Assembly (NCBI GenBank): GCA_034401795.1
Contig: CM067370.1
Span: forward strand, 104,849,387-104,913,386
Length of the DNA: 64,000 nucleotides
Reading direction: 5' to 3'
From: Chaetoderma sp. LZ-2023a
Lineage: Eukaryota; Mollusca; Caudofoveata; Chaetodermatida; Chaetodermatidae
The position numbers and the translations under genes are program-made. Position 1 is the stretch's first letter, and the number at the start of each line of letters is the position of its first letter. This document shows positions 30,464-62,824 of this stretch, piece by piece. The notes under the pieces were generated by a model. The model ran no database searches and was not told the origin of the DNA. It saw only the letters and a program-made list of their open reading frames with translations.

Positions 30464-32434
30464 TGTGACAGAGTGATGTGCTGTGTCAAAATCACTTGTC
30501 TCAGTCAGGTTGTGTTTTGGGATATGGTTAGGTTTGTCTAAAAATTTCTTTTATATCTTAGGGCCGGATAACTTTAAGGGTAACTTTAAGTTGGCACGTA
30601 GGCAGATGAAATGTATTTCGCGCTGTTTTTGCACGCGAAACTCAGGTTCGCTTCTGATTGGCCGGGCCGCTAGAAATTTGGGTGTTTGGTTAAAGGATGG
30701 TTTAAGATAGCCATTCACATACTGACAAGTCAACTTGGAAGGAATGATTCCATGAATCTAAGTGTGGAATCCTGTTGGTAGATCTGCAAATGGAATAGTG
30801 ACTTTATTTCATTATGTTGCACTTAATTCATTCCGATTCTATAATTTCTTGATGTGTGTGGCTCTGGATTTTCCAATATTCGGCGGCGCTAGTTGTTGGA
30901 GTAATATTGAAAAATACGAAAACTGGTTATATTTCCAATTAGTAATGGTCAACCTGTTCCATCCAATATATACTCCACAGCGTTTATAACCGTGAGACAT
31001 TTGGTTTTACCAGTATAATGAGTGTCCCATCAGGAGTCGGGAGGGTTGGTTAGTTCGAAAACCGGTAACACAATGAAAGGAGTAACTTCGGATTTCAGGT
31101 CGGATTACCCTACTCAAATGTTAGCCTGTTAGGGCTAACATATTTCTGGATCCATGGAGTGAACCAGCTGCTATCTAGTGATCCAGGAATGGTACACTTT
31201 GTAAATATACTGTATTGTTTATTTGTATACTTTGTTATTATATTTTAAAAAGAAAATAAGGTTTTTGATGAATGTAAGTTCTTTTAGCTCTCCTGTTCGA
31301 AGAACAGAATAGTTGACATCACAATGGGTTTTTGTACTGCATGGTTGAAATGCAACCATCTTTCTGAGATTAGCATATAATCTAGCACAGACTATATTAT
31401 TTTGATTAGGTCAATTGACGGCAGATGATGAGGCAGTTCAGACTTTGGAAGGAACAGTTCTGGTGAGATAGTTAGATTTTCTCTCTGATTCTGTCTATTT
31501 GTCTGTGGTGAAATTGTCTACAGTGCTAGGTCTTGGGCATTATTTTGGTCAGAGTTGTTGGTGGAATTAATTCTTATTGATAATAATTGATTTCCGTCAT
31601 CAAATCTGGGTTAAAGGTTGTCTAGGACGATGGTCGATAAGGCACATGTTTTCTTTAAAGGTAGGACAGAATCAGAGTTTGTGGTAAGATCAGTGTGATG
31701 TGTTTCCCCCCTTGTATGCATATGAAGCAAACTTGACTCTCTGAACCCTGGCGTCACAGTATATCAATTACCAGGCAACCGTATAGGTAAGTTATTTGTT
31801 ATTTTGGGGCGAGTGCAACAGGAAACTGTTGATGCCATAGTCAGCATGGTTGATGCCATAGGCTGCTACGGTCCCAGTTTGGTTCGTTTCAAAATATTCA
31901 GCAGAATATTTAATAAATTGTAATTGAGATTTTGAAGTCGCTATTTTGGGTTGAAAGGGTTAAATATTCATGTATCTAAGGTTTAGCTCATAAGTCCATG
32001 GTGTACCGGTTCTGTCGACTGACCTTTGTCCGTCTATTTATCTACCTGTTCGTCAGTTGTCCGTCTTACTTTCCCTTGGCGCACACATATATATATATTT
32101 TTTTGCGCATGTTGAAATCATCACAAATATTTTTATGCATGTTGGAATCGTGACATTTTGAAAATGGAATTCCAATGGTTAATTGGTTTGTGCATCATAA
32201 TTTTCTTGTTACGGTTCATGCTCTCGACCGGACGTTACCGTTACAGATGCTGAGCTTTGCTAGTTCCTTCATTTCTCATTCGACTACAGACGTATGGGTT
32301 AATATTTATTATCCTACAGTTAAAACATCTAGCGCTTGTAGTTAGTATCTATTATCATAATAGGCAAGATATACTTTAAAGTGCAATTATTTAATTAAGC
32401 GCCTTATGTTTGTCATTTTTCTAATTAGTGATCA
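30464..32434 (+). repeat. Left LTR, 5' segment
   Basis: Starts TGTGACAGAG and matches 48242-50476, except for a ~255-bp segment with a TA microsatellite present only in the right copy (48560-48815). It contains a diverged family B unit at 31725-31930. It is interrupted at 32434 by a DNA transposon and resumes at about 38601. Small open frames inside are not conserved between the two LTR copies. Confidence 0.92.
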
Positions 32435-32494
32435 TAGTCCAGGAGCTAAAGCTAGGTCAGAATCGTGACGTAGCACACCCAGTATTCGGAAGGT
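32435..32494 (+). repeat. Academ-like left terminal inverted repeat region
   Basis: Terminal 'tagtccaggagctaa' and, 40 bp further in, 'cacccagtattcggaaggt'. Both blocks have inverted partners at 38530-38600, with non-matching DNA between them. Confidence 0.85.
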
Positions 32495-33239
32495 CTGACA
32501 CTTGCTGTGGCTTGGGGGACATGTCCCACACATTTTAAGCCCTGTTGTACAAACAGATTGTGGTAGCACTAATTAGTTATCCTGATTTCTTTGCATAGGG
32601 GGTGTAGGCTTTGGCTGTATCCACAATGCACAACGATATAAGCATGATCGTGTCATAACTCAAAGTAATATCGTATTAGATTCACCATATATGATATTTA
32701 GACGGATATCGACCTAACATATATCCAACATACATTTTGCATGCATATACCAAAGGCGAGGGTGAAATGTGAAGGTTATATTTTATGTATGTATACTAAC
32801 TCCATCATAGAATCTGTATATCCAGCTGTACCACTGTTGACAAAGCACCCAGGTAATGGTGGTTGGAATGATACAGATGGATGTGGTGGTAATCGGTTTG
32901 GGAAAACAAATTAAAATGAATACTACACCTCACATCGCTCTCATTGTCATTGTCTACATATAATTCAAATTATGCCTGTAACACTTGTTCCGGGGTAATT
33001 TTGTAATTTGACATTACAAGTAAACTGAAAGTTTAATTCACTCATTTTCTCAAATACAAATCTTTTTTTGAAAAGCACATAAGAATGCAAGTGGCATTTT
33101 ATGAATTTGTATTCATGAGAAAGGTTGTTAATACATGCCTTGATTAATAAAGCCTAGTATTGATTTAATATATATGCACACACACTAATTACATTTGCGA
33201 AATAATTACAAGCGCTATATAACTAGCAATTAAGCAAAT

Positions 33240-36200
33240 ATGGACAGTGATAGTTGTGACGAGGAAGTAGCGTTTCATCTTCTCCCAGCAAAGCGTATCA
33301 AAACGACACAATGGACTCGCTGTATTATTTGTCAAGCACATAGTAGCGAAACTGTTAGCAATGCCACTGAAGTCGGCATCTCAAAGTTCATAGAGGCTTT
33401 CCAACACCGGGAGGATGACGTTTATGAAAGACTTAACTCAAATATTGATCAATTAAAACAACTGGATATCGTGTGGCATAGAAACTGTTATGCTAAATAC
33501 ACAAGCAAGCACAATATTAACTTTGCGAAAAGATGATCCATGACACCACCAACTCCTATGCCTCTTGATAAACAAAGTCCAGAAGAATCGACAAGTTTGG
33601 CTAGAGCAGCAAGATCGAGATCATCCCCGATAAACTGGGCAATGTGTATGTTTTGCCAAAAGAACTCACAAGAAAGTCAAGAAATTATTCTCAGTTTCTA
33701 CATTTTCCGCATGCCAAAACATACAAATTGCAGCAGAGAAAATGGCGGATACAGAAATGCTTACCAATATAAGAGGCGTAGAATTAATCGCTTCAGAAGC
33801 CAAATATCATGAAATATGCCGTGCACAGTATGTATCAATGCGCAATGTGATGTATAAATCATACCAAGAAACTGTGAATGAGGATTCGTTCTCCCAATCA
33901 TTCTCGGAGCTGGTAGCAGAGATAGAGTCTGGACTTGTATCAGGAAAAGCTTACAGCATGACATATTTGTTGAGTCGATTCAAGTTTTATCTAAAGAATA
34001 ATGGTGTGACTGCTGACAACTACCGCTCCCAAAGACTGAAGAGCCGATTACAAAACTACTTTCAGGATTCAATCGTTTTTCACCAGCAGCTAAACCCTTC
34101 CAAACCCGAGCTTGTTTATTCCAGTGATATATCTTTAGAAGATGTTATTAATGCAGCTGCCAATGCAGCTGGTGGTAGATCAGCGTATACTGATAGGCCA
34201 CATGGCTCAACTGATACTACTAGCAATGATGTTGACACGTTGTTCCACGCAGCGCAGATTTTGAAGGGAGATTTGGAGGCTTGTGAGGGGATCACCATTA
34301 AACCAGTTGATGTTGACAATCTGACACTCGCAAAAGCAAAGGAAATTATTCCCCAAAGCCTCTACTGGCTGCTGCGGTGGGTTACCACGAATGCAGATTT
34401 AGCACCAGAGCAGTTAGGTAATGTTAGATCAGAATGTGCTAATGAAGGTGATGAGAGGCATGTAATGATGATATGCCAAGACATAGCGCATTGTGTATCA
34501 CACGGGAGAAAGAAAATGCCAAAACACATAAGCCTCGCTATGACAATGAGGCATCTTACAGGTTCCAAACAAGTTGTCACCATTCTGAATCGTATGGGTC
34601 ATAGCGTTTCCTATGATGATATTGAGGTAGTTGACACTAGTATGGCGCTTGAAGTATTAGCTCAATCAACACGGTATGGAGTTGTAATACCAACAAACAT
34701 TGTTCCAAACTCGTTCGTTCAAGTAGCAGCTGATAACAATGATATACTTGAAGAAACCTTAGACGGTAAACAGACAACTCACTCAACGACAATGGTGATG
34801 TTCCAACGAATGCAATTTGGCCCAAGACCAGAGCGTGTCATACATGCTGAACACTCAGTCAGGAGAAGGGCTTTGACTGCACCAGGTACTGAAAACAGAA
34901 TTCTTGATTGTGGGGTGTTTGGTAGAAGACCAGTTGTGACCGCGTTCATAGACACTGTCAAGAAGGATTGGTACCAATGTGATAGCTCAATCCAGGAACA
35001 GGCATTAGTCATGGATCTTGCATGGGCCATCGTTCGAATGTGTCCAATAAAATTGTTTGCGGTAGATCTTGTACCCATGATGACCACAGAAACACAAACA
35101 GTCCCTAGTTGGAGTGGATTTAATGCACTTGTATCATGTGCTAACGCACCTTTTACACAAATCGGTTACTGTCCAATGATTTCCGGATCACCAACTGAAT
35201 TCAATACGGTGTATACGGTCATGAAACAAGTTCAAAGAATGATGACAACACTAGGACAGAATGACTCGGTCATTACATTCGACTTGGCCATATATGTCAA
35301 GGCAAAGGAGATACAGTGGCGATATAAAGAAGAGTTTAGTGACACTGTGATCAGACTGGGGGGATTCCACATTGCGCTAAACTACTTAGCTGTTATTGGA
35401 AAGATGTTTGATGACTCTGGCTTAGAAGATCTCCTCATAGAGGCCAACACATATGGTAGCAGCACGGCTGCTGCTCTACTTAAAGGGAAGTCATATAATC
35501 GAGGAGTGAGGGCTCACAAATTGGTTATGGAAGCACTGCTGCGATTACAATGGCAGTCTTTTTCCAAATGGGTTCAACAAAATGGACAACATGAAGACCA
35601 CATTACTCCAACAGAATTGGAGAGTCTGGATGAGAAAATTAAGATGTGCCGAAGCAGCATTGACGACTTAGACGCACTGCAAGAAAATTTCAAAGAGGTG
35701 TGTATGTACGTGAATAAATTGCAACAGCTGTTCAAATCCTTTAAAGTTGAGTCAAGCTCGAAATCACACCTGTTCGCATTTTGGAACTCATATATTCATA
35801 TGGTAGAGCTGCTGCTTGGATTCATAAGAGCTGAGAGAACTGGAGATTGGCAGGCACACCTATCTGTTACTGCTGCTATGGCGCCATATTTCTACAGCAT
35901 GGACAGAACCAATTATGCAAGATGGCTGCCAATATATCTTGCGGACATGAAGATGCTTCCAAGTACACATCCCCATGTACATGAACAATTCTTGAATGGA
36001 AATCATTCCGTAAGTCGCACAGACCATCCATTCAATCAAGTGTGGACAGATATGGCCTTAGAGCAATCGATTAATTTGGATTCCAAAAAGCGAGGTGGTA
36101 TTATTGGAATAATACAAAAGCCAGGAGCTCTGTAGAGGTGGTTTTTAACTAGCCACGAGAGGGCAGCCATAACAACGGTCACAAAGCAAATGTGTGGGTT

Positions 36201-38104
36201 ACAAGATAGTCACATGTTTGGAGTACATAAGGAAATGGGGACTAATCGAATGAACAGGGATGAAACCGATGTGCAGAAGATACTTTCGATGTTCTCATCA
36301 GATATAATGACCAATCCCTTTAATATTGCGGAAAACGACGACAGCGAGTGTCTTCCGCTTGTAAACATTGCAACTGGCGTGGTATTGCCTAGTGAAATCG
36401 CCAAGAGACTTGTTTCCGCCTGTGACATTGGTAAGGAGATTATGGAAAATTTTGTTCAGGAGCGGCTGGACACTAACACGAGAAGCTTTTGGGACACGTT
36501 GCCACACTTAAAACTTAAAACATTTGCCAGCCTAGCACAGAAGAAAAAACTCAAAACAAATGATGAAAAAATTCACAATGTGAGATCTGACCGCGAACTA
36601 TTTGGTCGATTAATTATTGCCGCAAGGTCCAGAGATGTTGATTTAAAACTAGTGATGACGTATGAACTGTCTACTGTTCCACTATCATTGTCACATACGG
36701 ATGGGACTCTAAAGAAAGAATGTGAAAAGTGTTTTGTTAAGTGAACTAGAAAAGGAAGTAAATGTTGATGGACGGCTTCCACCTGTTGACAAGACAGGTG
36801 CAACCGCTTATGTAGTAGATGGCATGGCAATTGTGCAAATGGTTAAAACTGGAGGTACGTCTACATTTGGAGAATTGGCTGATAAATACTGGCATATCTT
36901 TACAGTTCCACTGAATCAAGAAGACTGCAACAGAGTAGATATAGTTTTTGACAGATATGATAGACTGGAATCTCTCAAAGCGGAAGAGCGGTTAAAACGT
37001 GGGTCATCAACAGCATTGGAAGTAAAGATTGCTGGAGAAAATACTCCCGTTCCAAAGCAATGGGCCAAGTACATCAGCAATCCAAGCAACAAAAGTAACC
37101 TGGTTGCATTTCTCAGCAAGCGGTGGCGTGATACTGGTCCAAATATGCTATCTGCCGACAATTGCGTCATTCTTGCTGGTGGCTTTAACGATGGAATGGA
37201 TGTTGTTGTCATTTCAGCGAACAATTCGTCGTATTTGGAAGAACTTCGATCAGATCACGAGGAAGCAGATACGCGTATGTTGTTGCATGCGCTACATGCT
37301 TCAAAAGACCACATGCGTGTTGTTATACAGTCTCCTGATACAGACGTGGCAGTACTTAGTATATATACGTATCGTTCGCTTCACTGTTCTGAACTATGGT
37401 TCCGTACGGGCACAAAGGACAAATTGCGATACATACCAATACATACAGTTGCTCAAGTACTGGGCCCAGCTATCTGTCTGTCTTTGCCTGGGTTTCATTC
37501 TCTTACAGGTTGTGCTAGTACTAGTGCATTACTTGGAGTCGCTAAGAGAAAAGCATTCAATCACTTAAAGTCATCTGAATGTCATCAGCTTAGCTTAGCC
37601 CAACTCGGCGAACATGTTGACTTATCACCGAATACTGCAATTCTATGTGAGAAATTTGTCTGTGAGTTGTATACCACCAGGGATGTGGGAAAGACAGCTG
37701 ATGAAACCCGTTATTGGCTCTTTTGTCAAAAGAGACAAAGAAATGAAAATCTTCCACCTACATCGAATAGTCTAAAGCATCACACCGAAAGGGCCAATTT
37801 TCAAGCTCTTGTTTGGAGACGTTCATTGCAAGCTGTTCAGAATCTTCCATCTCCAAATGGACATGGCTGGAGTTTAGTGGATGGTCTACTCAAGCCTGTT
37901 CTAATGTCAAAGGATCCTGCTCAATTTGGATTAATTGAACTCACATCATGTAGATGTCAAAAGTCTGCCTGCAAAAGAACAGATCTCTGTCAATGCAAGG
38001 CTAACAATCTACTCTGCACTGAAGCATGCCTTTGTATGGGAGGTGAAATGTGTGACAATGTTCAGCATACAATTGTCGAAGATGACTATGACACGGATGA
38101 GTAA
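33240..38104 (+). pseudogene. Academ-like transposase-nuclease-CXC protein, broken
   Basis: About 1,620 codons. The N-terminus has Cys/His pairs ('CIICQ' ... 'WHRNCYAKY' and a second 'CMFCQ' ... 'YHEICRAQY'), probably DNA-binding zinc modules. The transposase core shows 'ADNNDILEETLDG' (34730), 'TFDLAIYVKAKEIQW' (35278), 'GGFH' (35360) and 'MALEQSINLDSK' with a candidate catalytic Glu at 36061. Next comes a FEN1/XPG-type nuclease with acidic motifs 'YVVDGMAIVQ' (36810), 'DHEEADTR' (37255) and 'SPDTDVAVL' (37335). The normally acidic 'GCD' motif reads GCAS at about 37509. The end is a CXC module, 'CRCQKSACKRTDLCQCKA' and onward (37950-38064). Breaks: in-frame TGA 33534-33536, a frameshift near 33690-33740, in-frame TAG 36133-36135 and a frameshift near 36720. 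It is not functional as it stands, but the frames are otherwise long, so inactivation is recent. Confidence 0.82.
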
Positions 38105-38529
38105 CATTCTCTCATTTGCTCACGTGATAAATATGTCCTGCCAGCTTGTGTAGACATGCACTGCATGTCAGTTAAAAGTTTAATTATGAAAAATGTAGAA
38201 AACATGGGCATTGTTGTAGCTAAGGTATTGCTAGTCACAAGAAGACCTAAGTGCCCCAATATGTACAAAGCAACATACGGGTGTCTTAAACGAGGTTGAT
38301 TATGTATAAATCTGCGATATACGATCACTCCTTTCCATTTTGGTTAAGATTGTATTGATATAACATGCGCTTAAGTTTGTGAAAAATTTACCATTGTGAA
38401 AATTGTTTGAGAGCTACATTCAACACCTATTGTAAATGGGCTTCTCACGGGTTAGTGATACCACAATTTTCTTGTACAACACGGCTCAGAATATACCCAA
38501 GACATCGGTCTAGCATAATATAGAGACAA

Positions 38530-38600
38530 ACCTTCTGAATACTGGGTGTCCTACGAAACCATTCTTCAAGACCCCTTTTGAAAATTGGCTCCCGGACTAT
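38530..38600 (-). repeat. Academ-like right terminal inverted repeat region
   Basis: On the minus strand it reads 'tagtccgggagccaa' from the end, then 'cacccagtattcagaaggt', mirroring the left end with few mismatches. Confidence 0.85.
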
Positions 38601-39325
38601 CAGGGGTGTTTACCTGGGTGTTAACCTGAAGCAGTTCATGGGGTGTTTACCTGTGTGTTAACCTGAAGCAGTTCATGGAATGTTAACCTGAAGCCGTTTC
38701 ATGGGGTGTTTACTTGGATGTCAGAAATTAGATGAAAGAAATTGTTTAACTTTAATTTGTTAGACCTAGATAAGAAATTACCTATCTGTAAAATGTATTT
38801 AGGGCATTATATTTCATGCGAATTATTCTGAGGAAATGGGGAATTTTCCATATTAAAGAATATTTTGTCTTTGGCCAACGTCCCTCCGGGTGGTTATAAG
38901 GATTAAGGGTATTTTATAGCTAAGGTTGTGATCAGTCATATTCTATTTTCAACTTTGATCTCAGGAGATCCTGGTAATTGTTTCATTGGGTTTATTCTGC
39001 GAAATGAAAAAATGATTTTTGCATGTGTAGGGTTTAAGGAATTATGTAATCTATTCAGTATTTTGCGTATTCCATTTGTATAGATATTCGTTGTGGAGCA
39101 GTGAACAAATGGTGAGAGAATTCATTCATTAAAATTCTTACTTAAACTTAATTTTTATATTATTACTCCCATCCCCCATCATTCACGCCTATAGTTAATA
39201 CAAATGGGATTCATTAAGAACCGGTGACCTCTAGCAACTGAATTTTCATTCGTCAATCAAATTGTTATTTTCTCCTTTGGAGATGATTGTTAAAGTTTTT
39301 CTATGGTTGAAGTTGCTACGTCACA
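38601..39325 (+). repeat. Left LTR, 3' segment
   Basis: Resumes the LTR at the second TCA and ends GCTACGTCACA. It holds about three 37-bp tandem units against about seven in the right LTR. It also lacks the ~200 bp corresponding to 50702-50904, with a short 'ggatg' microhomology at the junction. Confidence 0.9.
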
Positions 39326-39327
39326 AT

Positions 39328-39345
39328 TGGCGCTGTGAGTAGGAT
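39328..39345 (+). promoter_or_regulatory. Candidate minus-strand primer-binding site
   Basis: 'tggcgctgtgagtagg' begins two bases after the left LTR end. The TGG start and position are those of a tRNA 3'-end-complementary site in Ty3/gypsy elements. Which tRNA is not determined. Confidence 0.7.
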
Positions 39346-40598: not shown

Positions 40599-41658
40599 AT
40601 GGCTGAAGCTAATGAAATATTAAAACTGAAGGAGGAGTTGAGACTTTTGAAAGAGGAAAAGGAGAATATTAGAATTAAAATGGAAAGTGAGAATGTTGAT
40701 CAGCCTCGGATAGTGTATCTAGCCCCTGAGCGAAAGATAGGCAGGTTCAGCAGTGATCAGAAGCAGATGCCGTTAGATGAGTGGATTGCTGATGTAGAGG
40801 CTTACATTGAGTCTCATGCACTGTCTGCGTCTAGTGCATATCATTTTATTAGAGAGCATTTGGTGGGAATGGCCAAGTTAGAGATAGAAGGGCGTGAGAC
40901 GGTGAAGTCGTCAGAGGATATTTTCAAAATTCTGCGGCAAGTTTTTAATGAGCCCGGAAATATCCACCAGAGAAGGCAGGCTTTCTACAGAAGACGACAG
41001 GCTCCGAGAGAAGGTATTCTTGACTTTTCACATGATATGCTGAGGTTGATAAAGGGTATAGAATTATTAGATGAGAAACAGAAGGAGGATCACGATGATA
41101 TATTAAAATCTCAATTTGCCGAGGGTGTGAGTGATAATGGTTTGACGAGAGAATTGCATCGTAGATTGGCAGAAGTTGGTGAGGAAGACTTCTTCGATCT
41201 TCGTGACTGGGCAATTGAGTGGGAGAAAAGAGGACAGCGGTCTGATTATAGAGCAGAAGGAGGTAAAGAGGTGTGTGTTCGAGAGGCTCAAGCTGAGTCC
41301 GGAGGAAAAGAGACTTATAATGTCCTCAGTAAATGCTGAATGGGTAGCCATGAAGAAACAGTTGGAGTCATTGGAGCAATGATTTCAATCCCAAGATCAG
41401 GCTAACAAGAGGTTGAGTTCCCAAATGGAGGCTATACTTCAAGCTGTAAATCATCCAGAACAGCGTTTGAAACATTGGATTACGGATTATAGATGCTTTG
41501 TGTGTGGAAGTGCTGATCATTTGAGAGATCGTTGTCCACATTTTCAAAGAAATAAAGATAATAATCATCGTGGTGAAGGTAGCAATCGTAGATACCCTCC
41601 AAATCAATATAAAGAAAGGTGTGATCCATCCCGATCAGAGGACAATCAGTTAAACTAA
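40599..41658 (+). pseudogene. gag, broken
   Basis: ATG 40599. It begins with a coiled-coil-like charged segment, followed by a retrotransposon gag capsid-type region ('MPLDEWIADVEAYIESH', 'FRE'-type helices, residues 30-220) and a CCHC zinc knuckle 'CFVCGSADHLRDRC' at about 41497-41538. The reading frame changes near 41240-41300 and has an in-frame TGA at 41380-41382. The Gag polyprotein would assemble the particle and bind RNA through the knuckle. The frame ends at TAA 41656-41658, directly before a slippery heptamer. Confidence 0.82.
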
Positions 41659-41664
41659 AAAAAC
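41658..41664 (+). promoter_or_regulatory. Candidate -1 frameshift heptamer A AAA AAC
   Basis: The heptamer is in the correct phase relative to the gag frame, and a -1 shift there enters the frame of the protease. In this copy a TAA codon in the gag frame lies immediately 5' of it (41656-41658), which would prevent ribosomes from reaching the site in phase. Either the stop is a mutation or the heptamer is fortuitous. Confidence 0.35.
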
Positions 41665-42194
41665 CCATTGTTGCGAGTCAAACAGTGGGTGATGATAAAT
41701 ATATGCCAACTAAAATTAGGGATAATGCTATTGGACAGTGTCCTGAAGGGATTATTTATATTGAAGGGGTACCGTTACCATGCCTCTTAGACAGTGGTGC
41801 GGAAATCTCCACTGTCACGGAGTCATTTTACAATCAATATCTTAAAAGTAAAGAGGTGGTACTCACTGATGTATCTGATTTAATTACGGTTTCTGTAGCC
41901 AAAGGAATGGAACTTCCCTTTCTAGGATATTTTGAAACTGATATCAAGCTTTCAAGTATAATTTTGAGCAAAATGGGTTTTTCTAAGGTTAAAGATCCTA
42001 TTGGGGAGCATATCTCCAAAAGGAAGCAACGATTACCTGGAGTTTTGGGAAGTAATATCCTACGGTTTTTTCATCAGGTCATGTTGGACAATCCTGGTCA
42101 AATTCAAAATTTAGTCCAGGTTCAGGAACATAAATCCTGGTTACAGGTACTGTCTTTGTTCAGAGTTACCCAGAGTGACTCCCGGGATAAATGA
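41664..42194 (+). pseudogene. pol: aspartic protease
   Basis: Frame open from at least 41664. The retropepsin motif 'CLLDSGAEISTVT' is at about 41783-41822 and a C-terminal 'LPGVLGSNILRFF' flap/ILG-like block at about 42035-42070. It overlaps the next frame at 42175-42194, where one frameshift separates protease from reverse transcriptase. It would process the Gag-Pol polyprotein. Confidence 0.8.
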
Positions 42195-44643
42195 TTTAAA
42201 AGTTGGTGTTGTTCGCGTAGCCGGAAGATATCCTATTTGTGTTCCAGCAGGGACTTCCCGGATTATTTCAGGTTCAGCTATGAAATGTCCTAAGGTTGCT
42301 TGTTATCATGCCTTGGTGGAATATTCTAGTGTATTAAGTCATCTTCCAAATGGAGTTTTAGTTAGTCCTGGTTTGGTTCAAGTGACGAATGGTTATGCAC
42401 CCATTAGAGTAGCGAATTTTTCCGATGACGATATATACTTACATCGGGGACAAAGAATTGGTTTATGGAGAAGAAATATCCTTGTGCAAGAAAATAACAG
42501 TAATGTCAAGTCACAGTCAGATGTAGTTGTTCCTACTGAATCAGACATTGATAATCTTATTTCCCAGTTACATGTAGGGGAAAATCTTACTGCAGGTCAG
42601 AGGGAACAATTACGAGTAGTGTTAAGGAAGTTTTATTATGTTTTCAGTAAAGGGGATCATGATTTAGGATACTGTGATATAATCAAACATTCCATTACCG
42701 TGACAGATTCAAAACCCATCCGACTTCCTCACCGACAAATTCCTCCTAATCAATTGGAACAAGTACAAGAATATGTAAACACCCAGTTGAAAGCGGGAAT
42801 TATTAGACCTAGTAAGTCTCCCTATGCATCTGCAGTAGTTTTGGTGAAGAAACCTGATGGTACACTCAGAATTTGCGGAGATTTTTGCCTCCTGAATTCT
42901 AAAACCGTTAAAGACGCCCATCCCTTACCAAGGGTTGAGGAGGCTTTTGATGCCCTAAAGGGATCAAAATACTTCTCAACCATTGATTTGGTGCATGGAT
43001 TTCTTCAATGTGCCATAGAAGAGGAAGCTATCCCGAAAACGGCTTTCTGTGTGGGATTCTCCGGTTTATATAAGTATACCAGAATGCCTATGGGCCTATG
43101 CAATTCCCCTGCGACGTTTTCCCGGATGATGCAGGCTTGTTTAGGGGACCAAAATTTGCTGTCGTTGATTGTTTATCTAGATGATATTCTGGTATTTGGA
43201 AGCTCATTTGAGGAAATGGTAGAAAGGTTAAGTCTGGTATTTGCACGGTTGGAAGGATTTGGCCTCAAAATGAAACCTAAGAAATGTTTTCTATTTCAGG
43301 AAAGGGTAAAATACTTAGGTCATGTTATTTCGAGTGCTGGGATAACTACAGATCCTGATAAAATCTCTTGTATAAAGGATTGGCAAACTCCTAAATCGGA
43401 AATGGAATTAAGATCTTTTGTTGGTTTAGCTTCATATTTCCGTCGGTTTTTGCAGGGATTCGCCCAAGTTGCCAAACCTTTGAATATGTTATTAGGAAGT
43501 TGTAAGAAAAATAAGAAACAGCGGTCTGATGAAAAATCCTTTAAAGAAAAGTGGAAGGCTGAATGTGATAAAGCATTTGCGGATATAAAGGAAATGTTAA
43601 CATCCGATCCTTTATTATGTTATCCTGATTTTTCCTTACCATTTATTGTGGAAACGGATGCAAGTTTCAAAGGATTGGGGGCTGTTCTTTCACAAAAACA
43701 GAATGGGCAAACTGTTGTAATTGCATATGCTAGACGAGGAATAAAACCTTCAGAACGGAACGATGCTAACTATAGTTCAATGAAAATAGAACTTTCAGCT
43801 TTGAAATGGGCCGTGACAGAAAAATTTAGGGATTATTTGATCGGATCAAAATTTACAATTTTTACTTATAATAATCCTTTGGCATATATCAAGACGGCTA
43901 AATTGGGTGTGACAGAGATGATGTGGGTAGCGCAATTAGCCCAGTTTGAGTATGAAATTGTGTATAGTTCAGGCAAAGCCAACGCAAATGCTGATGCATT
44001 AAGACGAATTCCTAATTATCATCGTATAGCCATGCTGAATGAGGAAATGATTACTATTCCAACTTCTATACCATGTAAATTGAGGGAGGTTTTGGTGGAT
44101 TGTCAGGCTGGGGCTGATTTTTCAAATAAATTGCATGTATCTATAAATGAGATTGCTACAGTTCCAAGCACCTTGCCCAGATATGATAATTCGGATTATG
44201 TAAAATTCCAGCAATTAGATCCTGATATTTCTACGTTAATTCATTTTCGGAAATATTCTCAGAAACCAACCAAGAATATGTTAAATCACGAATCTAGAAA
44301 TGTTAAGAAGTTGGTACAGCAATGGGATCGAATTCAAAGTGTTTCTGGAGTATTGTATCGAATCATTTGGGTACATGGAGTACAGATAAGACAAATACTA
44401 CTTCCCACCTTTCTCAGAAAAAAAGTATTAAAAGGTTGTCATGAGGAATTGGGTCATCAAGGAAAAGAACGTACTTGGTTGTTATTAAGATCTCGTTGTT
44501 ATTGGCCTGGTGTGTACCTTGAAGCAGAGCGCCATTGCCATGATTGTCAAAGATGTTTTATTGCGAAAGCCAGTCCTCAGGTTAAGACATCTATGAAACA
44601 TGTTTTTGCAGAAAACCCTTTGGAAATTTTAGCTATTCACTAA
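42175..44643 (+). pseudogene. pol: reverse transcriptase, RNase H and integrase zinc finger
   Basis: 822-codon open stretch. Reverse transcriptase blocks: 'KKPDGTLRICGDFCLLN', 'YFSTIDLVHGFLQ', 'MPMGLCNSPATFSRMM' and the active site 'VYLDDILVFG' at about 43171. The Ty3-type RNase H has 'VETDASFKGLGAVL' and 'SSMKIELSALKWA', but the third acidic position, normally Asp in the 'TDNNPL' block, is Tyr (43867-43869). The HHCC integrase finger 'HEELGHQGKERTW' ... 'CHDCQRCF' is at 44440-44560. It ends at a small indel before the integrase core. Lineage: Ty3/gypsy by domain order (RNase H before integrase). A GTG at 42175 is not a true start; the frame continues the polyprotein. Confidence 0.9.
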
Positions 44644-44644
44644 G

Positions 44645-45800
44645 ATGGAGAAGGCCAGTGATGGGAAAGAGGATGTTCTGGTAATGACAGATGTCTTTAC
44701 CAAGTTCGTACAGTGTATTCCCACAAAGGATCAAAAAGCTAAGACAGTAGCAGAAGCTTTAGTTTCCAATTGGTTTGTTAAGTATGGTATTCCTTTATCT
44801 ATCCATAGCGATCAAGGAAGGGATTTTGAGTCTAAGATTATAGCCGAATTATGTAATTTGTACAATATTAAGAAGACTAGAACTACACCATATAGACCCC
44901 AGGGTAATGGTAAAAAAAGAGACGTTTAATCGTACCTTTCATGATCTACTTCATGTTTTGTCTCCAGAACGGAAAGTTAGATGGCCAAAATATCTACAGG
45001 AGTTAATTCTTGCTTATAATGTTACTCCTCATGCTTCTACAGGATATTCACCTTTCTTCTTGTTATTTGGTCGAGAACCTCATTTACCTGTTGATGACAT
45101 TTTGGTTCCACAGGTCACCTCAGTTCCTTCGGATATTGACGATTGGGTAAGGGATCATAGAGAGCGGTTATACGAGACTCTTCTATTGGTACGGGCAAAG
45201 TCTAGAAAGAAGGCAGATGAGAGAGCCATACGACATAATCAGTTCGTCCGAGAGTGTGTTCTTACTCCAGGAACAAAGGTTTTCATCAAAAATAGAGGTG
45301 TCAGAGGTAGAAGTAAGATTCAAGATCATTGGAAGTCTGAACCATTTGAAGTGTTGCGTAGAATTGATCCTAATGGTCCAATTTATGAGATTAGGTCTTT
45401 GTGGCATCCTATTCAGAAATGTCTTCATATAAAGGAGTTACTTGATTCAAAAGAATTTGTAGAATTAACCGATCATGAGGTTGCAGATGAGATATCAATA
45501 GTGTCTTTGCAGAAGGAGAGTGAGACTGAAGGGGAAGATGATGATTCGGAGTTCTGGAATGTGAATCAGGTGGTTGATGAGTTAAATCGTGTAGTGCCAG
45601 ATTCTAGAGTGAATTCAAGACTACCTGAAATGGAAGATTCAGTTTCGAGTGGGACAGAGATGCCAACCTCTGTGAGCTCAGAAGTTTCGGAAGAGGTAGA
45701 CTCGAGTGTAGCTCCTCGTCGGTCCACTAGAAGCACAGCAGGTCAACACAGTAATCCGTATAATTTACCACAATCTGCTGCAATAAGTCCTAGGATGATG
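44645..45800 (+). pseudogene. pol: integrase core and C-terminal tail
   Basis: DDE residues: Asp in 'VMTDVFTKF' (44690), Asp in 'IHSDQGRDFE' (44810), and Glu directly after a 7-A run (44912-44918) whose length shifts the frame from 44645-44929 into 44907 onward. The C-terminal part continues open: 'YSPFFLLFGREPHLPVDD', the SH3-like 'VFIKNRGVRGRSKIQDHW' and an acidic Ser-rich linker. It then has 'RRSTRSTAGQHSNPYNLP', which is similar to the usual end of Ty3/gypsy Pol proteins. The frame does not stop there but runs into a protein kinase. Integrase inserts the cDNA; this copy is frameshifted. Confidence 0.88.
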
Positions 45801-47057
45801 GAAGCTGTAAGAATTAAGAAAAAGGCAAGCCAAGTTTCTCCATTAAAGATCGGAGAGGTATTATGTGATGTGAAAAAGAAGCAATGGATTATTGGTAATC
45901 AAATTGGTACGGGAGCTTTTGGTGTGGTGTATTTAGCCTCGGATGAGATTGCTAAGCCGGTGGTTAATACAACCTCATATGTAATCAAAGTTGGTTCTAT
46001 GGATGAAAGTCCCTTATTCTGTGAACAAAATGCATATCATCGGTTGTCCCATTCATCAGCAATCGACAAATGGATTGAGACTCATAAGATGAAGTATTTG
46101 GGTGTACCAGAAATTCTTTCTACAGGTATTCATTTTAAGGGTGACGTAAGATTTCGGTTTCTGGTAATGCCACGTTTAAGTACTGATTTCCAAAAGATTC
46201 TGGAATCAACGAAGAAATGTTTACCAGAAAAGGTAGTTTTAACACTTGGTATTCGATTGTTAGACACCTTAGAGTATCTACATACTAATGGAATTGTCCA
46301 TGGTGACATCAAAGCATCAAACATCATGCTAGGATTCCTTAATGGTGAACTCCGAGAACATGAAGTATATCTGGTAGATTATGGTTGTGCACATCCGTTC
46401 ATTAAGGATGGTTATCATGTGGTGTATAAGAAGGATTCAAAAGAAACTCAGGGTGGAACTCTTAAATTTTCTAGCTGTGATGCTGATCAGGGTGTCATTC
46501 CATCTCGTAGTGGGGATTTGGAAAATTTAGGGTACTGTTTGCTTCAGTGGACTTGTGGTCACCTTCCTTGGGAAGATAATCTTAAGGATAAAGATTATGT
46601 CAGGAAGTCCAAATTAGAATTTCGTGCATCGGTTCCATCATCATTGACAGCTGGTTTTCCCAAAGGTAATTCCCCTTTGTATTTATGAAAGTTCTTGTCA
46701 CATGTACATCAATTGGAATATTCAGAACAACCAGATTATAAGAAGTGTCGTCATTTCTTTAGAGAAGCTCTGTTCCAATTAGGTCATAAGAATGAATGGA
46801 TTTTGGAATGGGGTTCAGCCATCCAATCTCTAAAGAGGCATTTTGAAGTCGCAGTCTATGAAAAGTATCAGATTTCGGAAATAGTGTCTATCCCAGTTAT
46901 TTCAAAGATGGACCAAGGGTGCAATACTAACATTAGTATTGCTCCATGTGGTCTGGTTCCCACAGAAACAATGGATTTGAATTCACATGTGAACAAAAAG
47001 TGTCAGCATGTTGACAGTGACTGGTGCCAAGTCGCACCAGGTGTTTATAACATCTAA
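45801..47057 (+). pseudogene. VRK-type Ser/Thr protein kinase domain fused in frame to integrase
   Basis: In the same frame as integrase. Order: lead 'KIGEVLCDVKKKQW' (45845), Gly-rich loop 'IGTGAFGVVYLA' (45905), ATP Lys in 'YVIKVGS' (45987-45989), an alpha-C Glu in 'FCEQNAYHRL', the VRK insert-like 'WIETHKMKYLGVPEI', and the catalytic loop 'HGDIKASNIML' (Asp 46305-46307). Next come the metal-binding 'VDYGCA' (Asp 46377-46379; VRKs have DYG instead of DFG), 'PSRSGDLENLGYCLLQW' and 'GHLPWEDNLKD'. A TGA at 46686-46688 interrupts the C-lobe. The same frame then goes on with 'KFLSHVHQLEYSEQPDY' and an ~80-residue tail to 47057. All core catalytic residues are present. VRK kinases phosphorylate chromatin and nuclear-envelope factors such as BAF in animals. 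Lack of introns and position before the right LTR indicate capture of a host cDNA. It could alter nuclear entry or integration, but that is inference. Confidence 0.9.
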
Positions 47058-48241
47058 TAACCAGGAGTTAGTGTACAGTTAGTGATCGAATTATATGGGT
47101 GGAATCTCGTTCCTCTTAAGATTGATTTTATCTAGGATACGGGCAGGTGAATTACTCGCATGCACGATTTTTTCGGGTGTATTCTGGGTATTGTCGGAAT
47201 TAGGTCGTTTCGAGTGGAAGCTTATATATATATATTCAGATTACTAGATTATGTAAAGTGTGATGTGAATAAAAGTATACTTTATTGGGAGACTTCTATC
47301 TTATCATATATGGGCTGGTGAATTACTCGCTTGCACGATGCTTGGGTGGTATCCTGGCATCGGGTGTATATGGTCAGTGGGATAATTCTGATTTAAGTAT
47401 GTGGATGTCCGCTCCAGTCTTGTATTTTATAATAATATAATGTACATAATATTTGATTATAATTATACTTAGATATCCATCGTAATGGAAATCTTTCAAT
47501 AGAATAAATGTTTATTCTGAGCGGTTCTGATATTTTTATATTATTATTTTATTGAATCCTTTGCGAGATACTAAGGAATCCCAGGTCACTGATAAGTTAT
47601 ATAAGGTTGATGATTATTAAATATCATCATTATTATATTTATTTTATACGAGCTCTACTGAAAGGTAGTGAAATTCATAGTAGTGGTTTTGTGAGGTAGG
47701 TGGAAAGGTGTGTATCGATCCATCTTTGATGGGCGGCCGATGTTGAATAATATATAATTCCCTGAACTTTTAGTCATGGTCTCCCTGAACTAGATAGGTA
47801 CTTCTAGTTATAGGTCCTCTGAACTAATAGTTATAATTATGATTCTTTCGGAAAATATTTCAATTCATGTGTGAGACGTCTTCATGTTATTTCTGTTTTA
47901 ATGGTGGGGCACCCTCATAGTAACATCTTTAGAAGGAAACCATATTAAGCCCTCTACAGTGTGAAGTGTTGGTGGTGTGGCCCACAGTAGTACTTGTGAT
48001 GGGAAACCATAATAGGTCCATACAGTGTGAAGTTATATGGCTGGATAGGATGGTGACCGGAAAGGGGCCTCCTATCGCAGTCTGGTGCATGTTTGTCTTG
48101 TTTATAGAATCTCACATGTGTGGAAGGGCACCTAGCCTGGCTGCATTCTTATATCATATTATGAATTTGTCTGCGGATTTCAGTAGTGAAGGTTGTGGGT
48201 ATGGTTATTGTCGGGATGACAATAAAATCGGTTGGGACGAT
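47058..48241 (+). other. 3' untranslated internal region of the Ty3 element
   Basis: AT-rich, no conserved frame. Two segments, 47145-47230 and 47310-47400, share 'ggtgaattactcgc' and 'tgcacgat' boxes. The base just before the right LTR is only mildly purine-rich ('ggttgggacga'), so the polypurine tract is uncertain. Confidence 0.55.
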
Positions 48242-48589
48242 TGTGACAGAGTGATTTGCTGTGTCAAAATCACTTGTCTCAGTCAGGTTGTGTTTTGGGA
48301 TATGGTTAGGTTTGTCTATAAATTTCTTTTATATGTTAGGGCCGGATAACTTTAAGGGTAACTTTAATTTGGCACGTAGGCAGATGAAATGTATTTCGCG
48401 CTGTTTTTGCACGCGAAACTCAGGTTCGCTTCTGATTGGCCGGACCGCTAGAAAGTTGGGTGTTTGGTTAAAGGATGGTTTAAGATAGCCATTCACATAC
48501 TGACAAGTCAACTTGGAAGGAATGATTCCGTGAATCTAAGTGTGGAATCCTGTTGGTAGATTTGGCCTGTAGTTGGGTAAGTTATGCTC

Positions 48590-48590
<1 letters not shown>

Positions 48591-48674
<84 letters not shown>
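48591..48674. repeat. (TA)n microsatellite in the right LTR
   Basis: About 42 TA units inside a segment absent from the left LTR. Confidence 0.97.
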
Positions 48675-48678
<4 letters not shown>

Positions 48679-50477
48679 GAATAAATATTTAGAATGTTAT
48701 CATCATTATCATACCCTTTCCCCTCCCCTATCAAGTCTAAAATTCCCGTTAAAATATGGGAACCTTTGGATGGACCGCATGGGAAAAGATAGAATTGATG
48801 GGGATGTTTTGAAGTGCAAATGGAATAGTGACTTTATTTCATTATGTTGCACTTAATTCATTCCGATTCTATAATTTCTTGATGTGTGTGGCTCTGGATT
48901 TTCCAATATTCGGCGGCGCTAGTTGTTGGAGTAATATTGAAAAATACGAAAACTGGTTATATTTCCAATTAGTAATGGTCAACCTGTTCCATCCAATATA
49001 TACTCCACAGCGTTTATAACCGTGAGACATTTGGTTTTACCGGTATAATGAGTGTCCCATCAGGAGTCGGGAGGGTTGGTTAGTTCGAAAACTGGTAACA
49101 CAATGAAAGGAGTAAGTTCGGTTTTCAGGTCGGATTACCCTACTCAAATGTTAGCCTGCTAGGGCTAACATATTTCTGGATCCATGGAGTAAACCAGCTG
49201 TTATCTAGTGATCCAGGAATGGTACACTTTGTAAATATACTGTATTGTTTATTTGTATACTTTGTTATTATATTTTAAAAAGAAAATACGGTTTTTGATG
49301 AATGTAAGTTCTTTTAGCTCTCCTGTTCGAAGAACAGAATAGTTGCCATCACAATGGGTTTTGTACTGCATGGTTGAAATGCAACCATCTTTCTGAGATT
49401 AGCATATAATCTAGCACAGACTATATTATTTTGATTAGGTCAATTGACGGTAGATGATGAGGCAGTTCAGACTTTGAGCGCATATATGGAAGGAACAGTT
49501 CTGGTGAGATAGTTAGATTTTCTCTCTGATTCTGTCTATTTGTCTGTGGTGAAATTGTCTACAGTGCTACTAGGTCTTGGACATTATTTGGTCAGAGTTG
49601 TTGGTGGAATTAATTCTTATTGATAAGAATTGATTTCCATCATCAAATCTGGGTTAAAGGTTGTCTAGGACGATGGTCGATAAGGCACATGTTTTCTTTA
49701 AAGGTAGGACAGAATCAGAGTATGTGGTAAGATCAGTGTGATGTGTTTCCCCCCTTGTATGCATATGAAGCAAACTTGACTCTCTGAACCCTGGCGTCAC
49801 AGTATATCAATTACCAGGCAACCGTATAGGTAGGTTATTTGTTATTTTGGGGCGAGTGCAATAGGAAACTGTTGATGCCATAGTCAGCATGGTTGATGCC
49901 ATAGGCTGCTACGGTCCCAGTTTGGTTCATTTCAAAATATTCAGCAGAATATTTAATAAATTGTAATTGAGATTTTGAAGTCGCTATTTTGGGTTGAAAG
50001 GGTTAAATATTCATGTATCTAAGGTTTAGCTCATAAGTCCATGGTGTACCGGTTCTCTCAACTGACCTTTGTCCGTCTATTTATCTACCTGTTCGTCAGT
50101 TGTCCGTCTTACTTTCCCTTGGCGCACACATATATATATATTTTTTTGCGCATGTTGAAATCATCACATATATTTTTATGCATGTTGGAATCGTGACATT
50201 TTGAAAATGGAATTCCAATGGTTAATTGGTGTGTGCGTCATAATTTTCTTGTTACGGTTCATGCTCTCGACCGGACGTTACCATTACAGATGCCGAGCTT
50301 TGCTAGTTCCTTCATTTCTCATTCGACTACAGACGTATGGGTTAATATTTATTATCCTACAGTTAAAACATCTAGCGCTTGTAGTTAGTATCTATTATCA
50401 TAATAGGCAAGATATACTTTAAAGTGCAATTATTTAATTAAGCGCCTTATGTTTGTCATTTTTCTAATAACTGATCA

Positions 50478-50740
50478 GGGGTGTTTACCTGGGTGTTAAC
50501 CTGAAGCAGTTCATGGGGTGTTTACCTGGGTGTTAACCTGAAGCAGTTCATGGGGTGTTTACCTGGGTGTTAACCGGAAGCAGTTCATGGGGTGTTTACC
50601 TGTGTGTTAACCTGAAGCAGTTCATGGGTGTTGACCTGGGTGTTAACCTGAAGCAGTTCATGGAATGTTAACCTGAAGCCGTTTCATGGGGTGTTTACTT
50701 GGATGTTAACCGGAAGCAGTTCATGGGGTGTTTACCTGGA
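50478..50740 (+). repeat. 37-bp tandem repeat within the LTR
   Basis: About seven copies of a unit starting 'ggggtgtttacctgggtg' and continuing 'ttaacctgaagcagttcat'. The left LTR has about three (38604-38720). The unit is not palindromic and has no spacers, so it is not CRISPR-like. Confidence 0.93.
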
Positions 50741-51530
50741 TAGTGTATGAGATTTTTCAGAGACATGGTGCTTTAGTAATGTCATTTCTGAAACTGTCAG
50801 AAATGTTCCTGGATTTGTTTCTGGTATTGTGTTAAATTTAATCTGTATTTGGACATTTCAATATAAAAGAACTTTATACTTACCGGAGTTCACATAAATA
50901 TGATGTCAGAAATTAGATGAAAGAAATTGTTTAACTTTAATTTGTTAGACCTAGATAAGAAATTACCTATCTGTAAAATTTATTTAGGGCATTATATTTT
51001 ATGCGAATTATTCTGAGGAAATGGGGAATTTTCCATATTAAAGAATATTTTGTCTTTGGCCAACGTCCCTCCGGGTGGTTATAAGGATTAAGGGTATTTT
51101 ATAGCTAAGGTTGTGATCAGTCATATTCTATTTTCAACTTTGATCTCAGGAGATCCTGGTAATTGTTTCATTGGGTTTATTCTGCGATGATTTTTGCATG
51201 TGTAGTGTTTAAGGCATTATGTAATCTATTCAGTATTTTGCGTATTCCATTTGTATAGATATTCGTTGTGGAGCAGTGAACAAATGGTGAGAGAATTCAT
51301 TCATTAAAATTCTTACTTAAACTTAATTTTTATATTATTACTTCCATCCCCCATCATTCACGCCTATAGTTAAGACAAATGGGATTCATTAAGAACCGGT
51401 GACCTCTAGCAACTGAATTTTCTTTCGTCAATCAAATTGTTATTTTCTCCTTTGGAGATGATTGTTAAAGTTGTTCTAAGGTTGAAGTTGCTACTTCACA
51501 CAAGGAACGTAGAGAACAAGAAAAGTAGCC

Positions 51531-61289: not shown

Positions 61290-61460
61290 AGCCCAACAGG
61301 AACATTTAAGTCCTTCAACTGTACGAATTAAAGAGCTTTACTATTTAATAAGCAGCAGCATCCAGTCAAATTAGTTCCAAAATATCCAAGAGCTCACAAC
61401 CCCCACCCCCCCCTCCCATAGTTACCATGAAAGGGGGATTCTGGGAAGTCATGGTTCAAA
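61290..61460 (-). repeat. Family B MITE-like element, copy 11 (partial)
   Basis: 'ctgtacgaattaaagagct', 'ttactatttaataagca', 'cagtcaaattagttccaaa', then 'gattctgggaagtcatgg'. It lies directly upstream of, or is interrupted by, the LINE that follows. Confidence 0.6.
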
Positions 61461-62824
61461 GTATATATATAAATCACGACGACAACCTGTTTAAGTCTAT
61501 ATGCTTGGCCTCAACGTGGCGCAGGGGTGTAACCCACTGGGTGTCAATCCAGACATTTGGAGGGGCTAACCAGAGCATTATGCACAACGCTAATGAAATG
61601 ACACTTGGAGATCGAATCAACCGAAATGGTGCTCGCCTTGTGAGGATCCGCCAGGCAGGTGCAGCGCCGGGCTCCACGCCTCGAAGGAGCCCACCCTCAG
61701 CTACTGGAGGTCCCATCAACTCGTCTTGTGGAGCCAGGGGACGAGGATGGAGAGCTACTGGCCAACCGATAGAGAAAACCAACCCCAAAGAGAACCCTAG
61801 TATCAACATCATGCACTGGAACGCAGAAGGGGTTACCAACAAGAAATCTGAGCTCGAACAGTTCCTGTACGAAAACAACATTGATTTCTGCTGCATCCAA
61901 GAGACACACCTGCAAGAAGGTAAACAATTTAAGATCAGAGGCTACCAGATTTTCCGGTGTGATCGAAGAGGAAGAAAGAAATGTGGGGTGATCACCTTGG
62001 TCCGAAACAGCGTGAACGCCAGCCAGATCAAAACCTTTATGGAAGAGGCAGAATATATCAAGATCAAGGTAGCAACCAGCAACTCTGTGATTGACATTGT
62101 CAATTATTACTGCCCTAATGACAAGAATCTCTCACTTGACACAATCCAGGTCCCGGACTGCCACTTCCTCATTGCGGGAGACTTTAATGGCCAGTCCCAG
62201 AGCCGGGGATACAGAACACTTGATAAACGAGGAGAAGACATTGAAGCATGGCAAGATGAAAAGCACCTTTTACTTGTCAACGATCCCACATATAAGCCTA
62301 CCTTCTACCCACGCCGGTGGCACTCGACAACAACGCCGGACTTGGCATTTTGTACAGAAGACATTCACAGAAACCTCAGCAGAGTGGTCGGATCGCCATT
62401 AGGAGGAAGCGACCACCACCCAGTCCTCCTCTCTCTTTCTGGAGGTATTTCGACAAGTACACCGCAACATCCAAGGTGGAACTACAAAAAGGCAAATTGG
62501 AGTCTGTTCGGCATTCGTTCCAGTGAGCTTACCCAAAATATAGCAGTAGAAGGGAGAAACATCAACAATGTGGTCAAGGAATTTAATTCAAGTATCCTCA
62601 AGGCTGCCAACGAAGTGATTCCTCGAGGGTTCAGGAAAAACTACCGCCCCTACTGGACAACAGAACTGCAAGCAGCACATGATAAACTAGACAAGGCCAG
62701 AGAAGATGCAGAGGGTAATCCCCGTCATGAAAACCACTTCACGCTACAACAAACTAAAGCCAGGTATCTAAAGACCAAGCTGGAGGCCAAAAGAAGAAGC
62801 TGGAGGGAAGACGGCAGGGTTTAA
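61427..62824 (+). pseudogene. LINE ORF2 N-terminal part: endonuclease
   Basis: 465-codon frame. From residue ~125: 'INIMHWNAEGVTNKKSEL' (Asn of the family's start motif), 'CCIQETHLQEG' (catalytic Glu), 'VNYYCPNDKN', 'FLIAGDFNGQS' (GDFN block), 'TPDLAFCTED' and 'GGSDHHPVLLSL' (catalytic His in SDHHP). This is a complete exonuclease-endonuclease-phosphatase domain, which nicks the target for priming. The first ~120 residues are low-complexity and may not be translated. The frame ends at a TAA at 62822 where a frameshift separates it from the reverse transcriptase; 'KLWRLTKALN' in another frame (about 62840) continues the normal order. Confidence 0.85.

Follow-up and report, generated by a model that had tools for sequence, protein, structure and literature searches.

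The window analyzed here is a stretch of 64,000 nucleotides from the genome of the caudofoveate mollusc Chaetoderma sp. LZ-2023a, and it contains a Ty3/gypsy retrotransposon (window positions 30464–51500) that carries a VRK1-type protein kinase in frame after the tail of its integrase. We consider, with moderate confidence, that this kinase is a long-kept domain fused to the pol product, and that it most likely acts on the host protein BAF to spare the complementary DNA (cDNA) of the element. The initial annotation of the window had proposed that the kinase is cargo borne by the element and fused to its integrase. The many copies, the divergent groups, the co-divergence of kinase and integrase and the signs of purifying selection, as described below, bear out this proposal.

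The genome was searched with the kinase, which yielded 30 matches at the DNA level and 77 at the protein level. The window family consists of 12 loci, the 11 others having 95–98% DNA identity to the window kinase, and integrase sequence lies directly upstream of the kinase in all 12 copies, with a rearrangement in one (L028). In 10 of the 12, the window copy and nine others, one open frame spans the integrase–kinase junction, so that the further fused copies sought on the advice of the initial annotation are present. The matches outside the family show 28–66% identity to the window kinase over the matched pieces. The same-strand upstream DNA was examined at 46 kinase loci, 43 by sequence and three by match coordinates; after the removal of L049 as CK1-alpha, 45 VRK loci remain, 12 of the family and 33 divergent. 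Gypsy pol sequence lies upstream on the same strand at 42 of the 45 (39 of 42 by sequence and 3 of 3 by adjacency), in the form of integrase at 40 loci and of reverse transcriptase alone at L031 and L057, the latter a weak match (E 1e-4). No gypsy pol was found upstream at L036, L054 and L058. The outcome that the initial annotation had set against cargo, a processed pseudogene that landed by chance in a single element, is ruled out by the 12 family copies and by the gypsy pol at 42 of the 45 loci.

These counts are subject to two qualifications. Matches at C3:74498183, C13:115550244 and on C1259, apparently a duplicate of contig C761, stand outside the 45 loci, and the near-identical contigs C75 and C79 were counted as two loci. 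Identical matches occur on the contig pairs C75/C79, C761/C1259 and C829/C906, which are probably unpurged assembly duplicates, and the copy counts may therefore be slightly high. The host VRK1, also outside the locus count, is a separate multi-exon gene with exons kilobases apart (C15:80032392–80044048), and molluscan VRK1s are the best or near-best matches of its exons.

The fusion extends beyond the window family. Among 16 divergent loci, one open frame spans the junction in three (L021, L022 and L026). These three loci represent three other groups, and in them the pol tail RRSTRSTAGQHSNPYNLP (45717..45770), immediately 5′ of the kinase, is conserved as RRSTRRTAGQHSNVHNLP, RRSSRWMDGPHSNPFNLP and RWSTRSTAGQHSNPCNLP. 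The integrase match ends no more than 120 bp from the kinase match in 33 of the 37 loci with integrase upstream among those examined by sequence, and the distance is 200–488 bp in L050, L055, L059 and L064. We distinguish group A (the window family), A′ (L024–L027), B (L020, L021, L035 and L037), C (L022, L031 and L032) and D (L023, L030 and L033), with L034 standing apart; at least five groups have the junction tail or its spacing in common. Furthermore, identity between kinases is correlated with identity between integrases across 13 loci (77 pairs, rho 0.61; Mantel p 0.0002, the lowest value attainable with 5,000 permutations), and both the kinase half and the integrase half of the identity matrix recover the groups named above. 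The kinase and the integrase have thus been inherited together.

Some individual loci deserve mention. In the group C element L022, a second partial kinase copy (C2:103008990–103009223) lies right behind the first. L036 (C1:43270793–43271404) is intronless and VRK-like, with no gypsy sequence in the locus or in the 3.1 kb further upstream (L062), and of the element queries, a group C kinase matches it best. An intronless candidate for a domesticated VRK at C9:121182572 was rejected because it reads as CK1-alpha, by reading of the sequence and with no family search. This locus (L075, C9:121181300–121184000) has a 340-residue intronless open frame, which is either a retrogene or a single-exon gene.

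The kinase domain of the window copy (45840..46685) belongs to the VRK family, as shown by its VRK motifs and its sequence matches. It scores 284 bits against VRK1, as compared to 233 against VRK2, 139 against VRK3 and 82 against CK1-delta, and the VRK1 chain of entry 7tan is among its best sequence matches. The predicted fold is also closest to VRK structures. In the numbering of P0121, K63, E75, HGDIKASN (167–174) and DYG (193–195) are present, together with the PSRSGDLE and LPWEDNL motifs. The catalytic Lys, Glu, HxD Asp, Asn and DYG Asp are thus all in place, exactly as the initial annotation had stated for the catalytic residues and the VRK features. Among 14 divergent element kinases, eight are unchanged at the covered sites among these five, and the HxD and DYG aspartates are retained in nearly all of the copies that cover them.

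The same annotation had described an uninterrupted frame from the integrase core into the kinase, and this holds for only part of the window copy. The C-terminal part of the integrase (44907..45800), the pol tail and the kinase share one frame. In contrast, the integrase core is broken (44644..44906) by a stop and a frame change: the pol frame stops at 44643, and the frame shift falls before 44907. In addition, an in-frame TGA (46686..46688) interrupts the kinase, whose frame then runs on to its stop through the remainder of the C-lobe and a short C-terminal tail that is not basic (46689..47057).

Selection appears to have acted on the kinase. Family variants common to at least two of 11 copies have a ratio of nonsynonymous to synonymous substitution rates (dN/dS) of 0.19 (13 synonymous, 9 nonsynonymous), as compared to 0.63 for single-copy variants (32 synonymous, 71 nonsynonymous; Fisher p 0.026). 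The integrase of the family behaves similarly, with 0.33 for the shared variants and 0.97 for the single-copy variants (p 0.029). This contrast is absent from the last 122 residues, which start at 46689 (0.62 versus 0.56, from few sites). Between groups, the kinase dN/dS is 0.20–0.27 for the window family against L024, L026, L027 and L020, and likewise for L021 against L022; the dS values of 1.3–2.2 are near saturation, and three further between-group pairs are saturated. Moreover, in the 14 divergent element kinases, 369 of 494 cells are retained at the columns that do not vary among 39 aligned kinases, as compared to 1188 of 2993 cells at the remaining columns (Fisher p 2e-48). These values are signs of purifying selection on the kinase coding sequence, in the window family and between groups. 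The dN/dS below 1 that the initial annotation had linked to function is seen among the shared variants and between groups, while within groups A′, C and D the values reach about 1.

How could a kinase at the end of pol serve the element? We propose that a Ty3/gypsy lineage long ago captured a spliced, and hence intronless, VRK1-type coding sequence, kept it at the C-terminus of pol, as a domain directly behind the integrase, and passed it on with the element. If the kinase is made at all, then it is made as the end of pol, and it should travel with the integrase. An active kinase would thereby stay joined to the integrase, or be packaged beside it, in the particle and in the integration complex. 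There, it would phosphorylate the Ser/Thr-containing N-terminus of the host BAF bound to the element cDNA. The product of the host BAF gene begins with MSSTSQKHRNFV, which matches the Ser/Thr-rich N-terminus phosphorylated by VRKs. According to the available part of one report, phosphorylation by the poxvirus kinase B1 or by VRK1 blocks the binding of BAF to DNA (PMC4063967), and B1 is described as shielding viral DNA by inactivating BAF (PMC4063967, PMC7378220, both available in part). For this reason, we favor a B1-like role on the element cDNA: phosphorylated BAF would no longer cross-bridge the cDNA or trap it at membranes, to the benefit of transposition. In its wider form, the proposal would make the integrase-tethered VRK an ancient lineage's own countermeasure to the trapping of cytoplasmic DNA by BAF-like proteins, convergent with poxvirus B1 and old enough to have split into at least five groups within a single animal genome; we put this forward tentatively, as a possibility rather than a probability.

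Several observations weigh against the BAF reading, and we present them here together with the explanations that they favor. Work on retroviruses points in the opposite direction: VRKs reportedly disrupt the preintegration complex of murine leukemia virus, suggesting that a VRK harms a retroviral complex. If so, an element that brings along a VRK must be less dependent on BAF, or its kinase must serve a different step or have a different substrate. In addition, BAF guards retroviral DNA from autointegration, according to two reports (PMC4063967, PMC7378220). This work, and the groups in which the kinase looks neutral or has an altered loop, make any function of the kinase tentative.

The kinase tail (~46800–47057) is not basic, unlike the tails of bivalve VRK1s, and we accordingly speak of a VRK kinase domain, and not of a VRK1 orthologue. 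This tail bears on a rather unlikely explanation, in which the integrase-linked kinase acts on chromatin, by phosphorylating histones or binding nucleosomes as a tether at the target site. Its position after the integrase is that of the chromodomain in chromoviruses, and entry 7tan, which we take to be a nucleosome complex, might be counted in its favor. However, the basic C-terminal tail, thought to hold nucleosomes in VRK1, is missing here, which speaks against a nucleosome tether, and the element kinases retain VRK1-invariant columns, not all of which a simple tether would require.

We assign a similarly low probability to the idea that the kinase targets the element's own Gag, integrase or reverse transcriptase, or other host factors, and thus times assembly, uncoating or nuclear import. 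Its fusion to pol would put the kinase in the particle, and its co-inheritance with the integrase fits such a role, but the best-known substrates of VRK1 are BAF and histones.

It is less probable that VRK1 messenger RNA was captured repeatedly and independently by different gypsy elements. The case for this rests on an integrase tree of 15 kinase-bearing loci, eight kinase-free loci and nine database proteins, which rejects a single clade of kinase-bearing elements (approximately unbiased test, p-AU 1.9e-7). However, the sequences behind that tree are short, free of stops and drawn from different halves of the integrase, and L041, counted as kinase-free, has a truncated integrase; the tree therefore does not decide between single and repeated gain. 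The conserved junction tail and spacing also speak against repeated capture, as does the kinase tree, in which 12 element kinases lie on one side of a branch, and 24 animal VRK1s and the host VRK1 lie on the other. The tree with the host VRK1 that the initial annotation had called for thus sets the element kinases apart, although the branch support is modest (90/70) and the tree is unrooted. Since the kinase-bearing integrases do not form one clade, losses or exchanges must be assumed, and we tentatively read the history as one old gain with losses or as occasional exchange.

In some groups, the kinase could be a non-catalytic decoy that binds BAF or another VRK partner, which we consider very unlikely. 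Six of the 14 divergent element kinases are altered at one or more of the five catalytic sites. The glycine loop is lost in group D (SHTQRS in L023, SHKQRS in L030 and SDKQRS in L033), where the VAIK lysine position holds M, R and K, and it is partly altered in group C (L022 and L032, with the readings RQEGSG and SHEGSG). Judged by these residues, the group D kinase may be an element-borne pseudokinase. In contrast, the glycine loop is mostly intact in groups A, A′ and B and in L034, and the HxD and DYG aspartates, retained in nearly all copies that cover them, speak against a decoy; the loop and catalytic changes are also expected of old dead copies.

Finally, the within-group kinase dN/dS is 0.34–0.82 in B, 0.53–1.06 in A′, 0.72–1.04 in C and 0.93–1.04 in D, and values near 1 are also expected from decay after insertion. 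A functionless passenger, merely copied along with the element, would fit the values near 1 in A′, C and D, the stops in many copies, including the window copy, and the extra enzymatic frames of bdelloid long terminal repeat (LTR) elements, which show no significant departure from neutrality in the available part of that report (PMC5408684), but it is extremely improbable in view of the low shared-variant and between-group dN/dS, the kept VRK1-invariant columns and the fusion maintained by several groups.

The kinase lies between the integrase and the right LTR of one Ty3/gypsy element, as the initial annotation had it; all parts of this element are on the forward strand. The LTRs are 3.26 kb long, with the ends TGTGAC...GTCACA, and the left one is split by a nested transposon. 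Its first part (30464..32434) begins with TGTGACAG and has 97–98% identity to 48242–50477; its second part (38599..39325) ends in GTCACA, and ~200 bp of the right LTR are missing from it. The right LTR (48242..51500) reads TGTGAC...TTCACA. Directly after the left LTR, the primer-binding-site-like stretch TTGGCGCTGTGAGTAGG (39327..39343) is conserved in two other copies (L072 and L074); together with the TG...CA LTR ends, it fits a Ty3/gypsy element. A gag frame from an ATG (40599..41336) was read from the sequence, as Pfam gave no match, and a CCHC zinc knuckle (41494–41535) follows downstream in another frame. An aspartic-protease-like frame with LLDSGAEIS (41625..42191) has Pfam matches under the cut-off. 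Reverse transcriptase, RNase H and the zinc-binding domain of the integrase occupy 42115..44640. The order of PF00078, PF17919, PF17917 and PF17921, and then the integrase C-terminus, is that of Ty3/gypsy elements (Metaviridae). From 47058 to the right LTR, no frame of at least 100 residues lies wholly inside; a 138-residue frame (47933–48349), itself unsearched, enters the LTR, and a decayed env is possible.

The two window LTRs differ by a Kimura two-parameter distance of 0.017 across 2,568 aligned bases (20 transitions and 24 transversions). The DNA around three other kinase copies, on C1, C11 and C15, was read. In the C1 and C15 copies, one window-type LTR precedes the leader and another stands at the far end; in the C11 copy, the leader likewise follows such an LTR, and 188 bp of it appear at the edge of the other stretch. 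This comparison ruled out the LTR length of 0.7–1.0 kb from an initial reading. Ty3/gypsy elements are expected to have a target-site duplication of 4–6 bp; both flanks are available for two copies, and they are TATA/TATA, a duplication, for the C1 copy and CAAT/CAAG for the window copy. In a survey that scored 40 of 160 LTR candidates, same-family LTRs on one strand lie 4.4–5.9 kb apart at C11:263731113–263747245, C9:117480961–117486332 and C11:10778797–10784250. These are too near each other for a full element, and they are possibly short non-autonomous relatives or LTR tandems.

Two other mobile elements lie in the window. The left LTR is interrupted by a 6.2-kb DNA transposon (32435..38598), which is foreign to the retrotransposon and has terminal inverted repeats TAGTCC/GGACTA, a TCA target duplication and a 114-bp subterminal inverted repeat (70%). 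Its open reading frames (33634–38104) comprise 833, 202 and 463 residues, with a Cys-rich end, and its sole Pfam match is DUF6589, below the cut-off. At 61352–63998 lies a non-LTR retrotransposon with endonuclease and reverse transcriptase (PF03372, PF14529 and PF00078).

The fusion of a kinase to an integrase is a new instance of a retrotransposon with a captured enzyme. The initial annotation knew of no retrotransposon with a VRK domain, and our literature searches, judged by titles and abstract openings, likewise found no description of a kinase domain in an LTR retrotransposon. Among the matches listed by protein-database searches, no protein had both an integrase and a VRK kinase, although transposon proteins are often left out of such sets, and the lineage may for that reason occur in other species as well. 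In the search with the kinase region (proteins of ~338–1075 residues), none of the best 120 of 173 matches exceeded 51% identity. A search with an X-padded query (proteins of ~725–2306 residues) gave six matches, and in an integrase–kinase alignment search with 7,990 candidates scored, none of 64 matches had both domains in precomputed Pfam annotation. Separately, the predicted Pinctada imbricata protein P0003 (980 residues) has FLYWCH and MULE-transposase domains ahead of an ordinary VRK1, and it reflects either a fusion in the gene model or another kind of association between a transposon and a VRK.

Chromoviruses, the Ty3/gypsy elements with a chromodomain at the integrase C-terminus, also have an extra domain at this place, but theirs is a reader domain and not an enzyme. 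A retroelement has likewise captured a kinase in the case of retroviral oncogenes, v-src among them, but those are recent captures rather than a long-kept pol domain. Cellular VRK1 resembles the element kinase in its VRK motifs, its predicted fold and its kinase-domain identity (40–51% among the matches aligned or listed), while the element kinase is intronless, fused to an integrase, devoid of the basic tail and, in the trees, separate from the animal VRK1s sampled. Poxvirus B1 is also a VRK-type kinase in a selfish element, and it inactivates BAF (PMC4063967, PMC7378220, in the parts available); it differs as a free kinase of a DNA virus with no integrase fusion, and the likeness is one of description, with BAF as the putative target here. 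As far as the available text of the report goes, a Ty3/Gypsy lineage of Phalaenopsis has similarly fixed an enzyme of host origin, an AlkB N6-methyladenosine demethylase whose active-site residues are conserved, but it is an RNA demethylase in a separate frame in a plant host, and it is active in vitro (PMC9289625). Bdelloid rotifer LTR elements provide an invertebrate case, with a GDSL esterase or a DEDDy exonuclease after pol. These are other enzymes in a separate ORF3, and no departure from neutrality is reported for them; the word "kinase" occurs 0 times in the part of that report available (PMC5408684).

LTR retrotransposons seldom retain a host-derived enzyme, and here an integrase-fused kinase, whose best-known substrate, BAF, binds foreign DNA and gathers it together, has been kept across several groups with signs of selection. 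This finding opens the questions of whether BAF restricts the cDNA of retrotransposons, and whether retroelements evolved a kinase in answer, as poxviruses did. A natural fusion of integrase and kinase also offers a way to ask what phosphorylation does at the integration complex.
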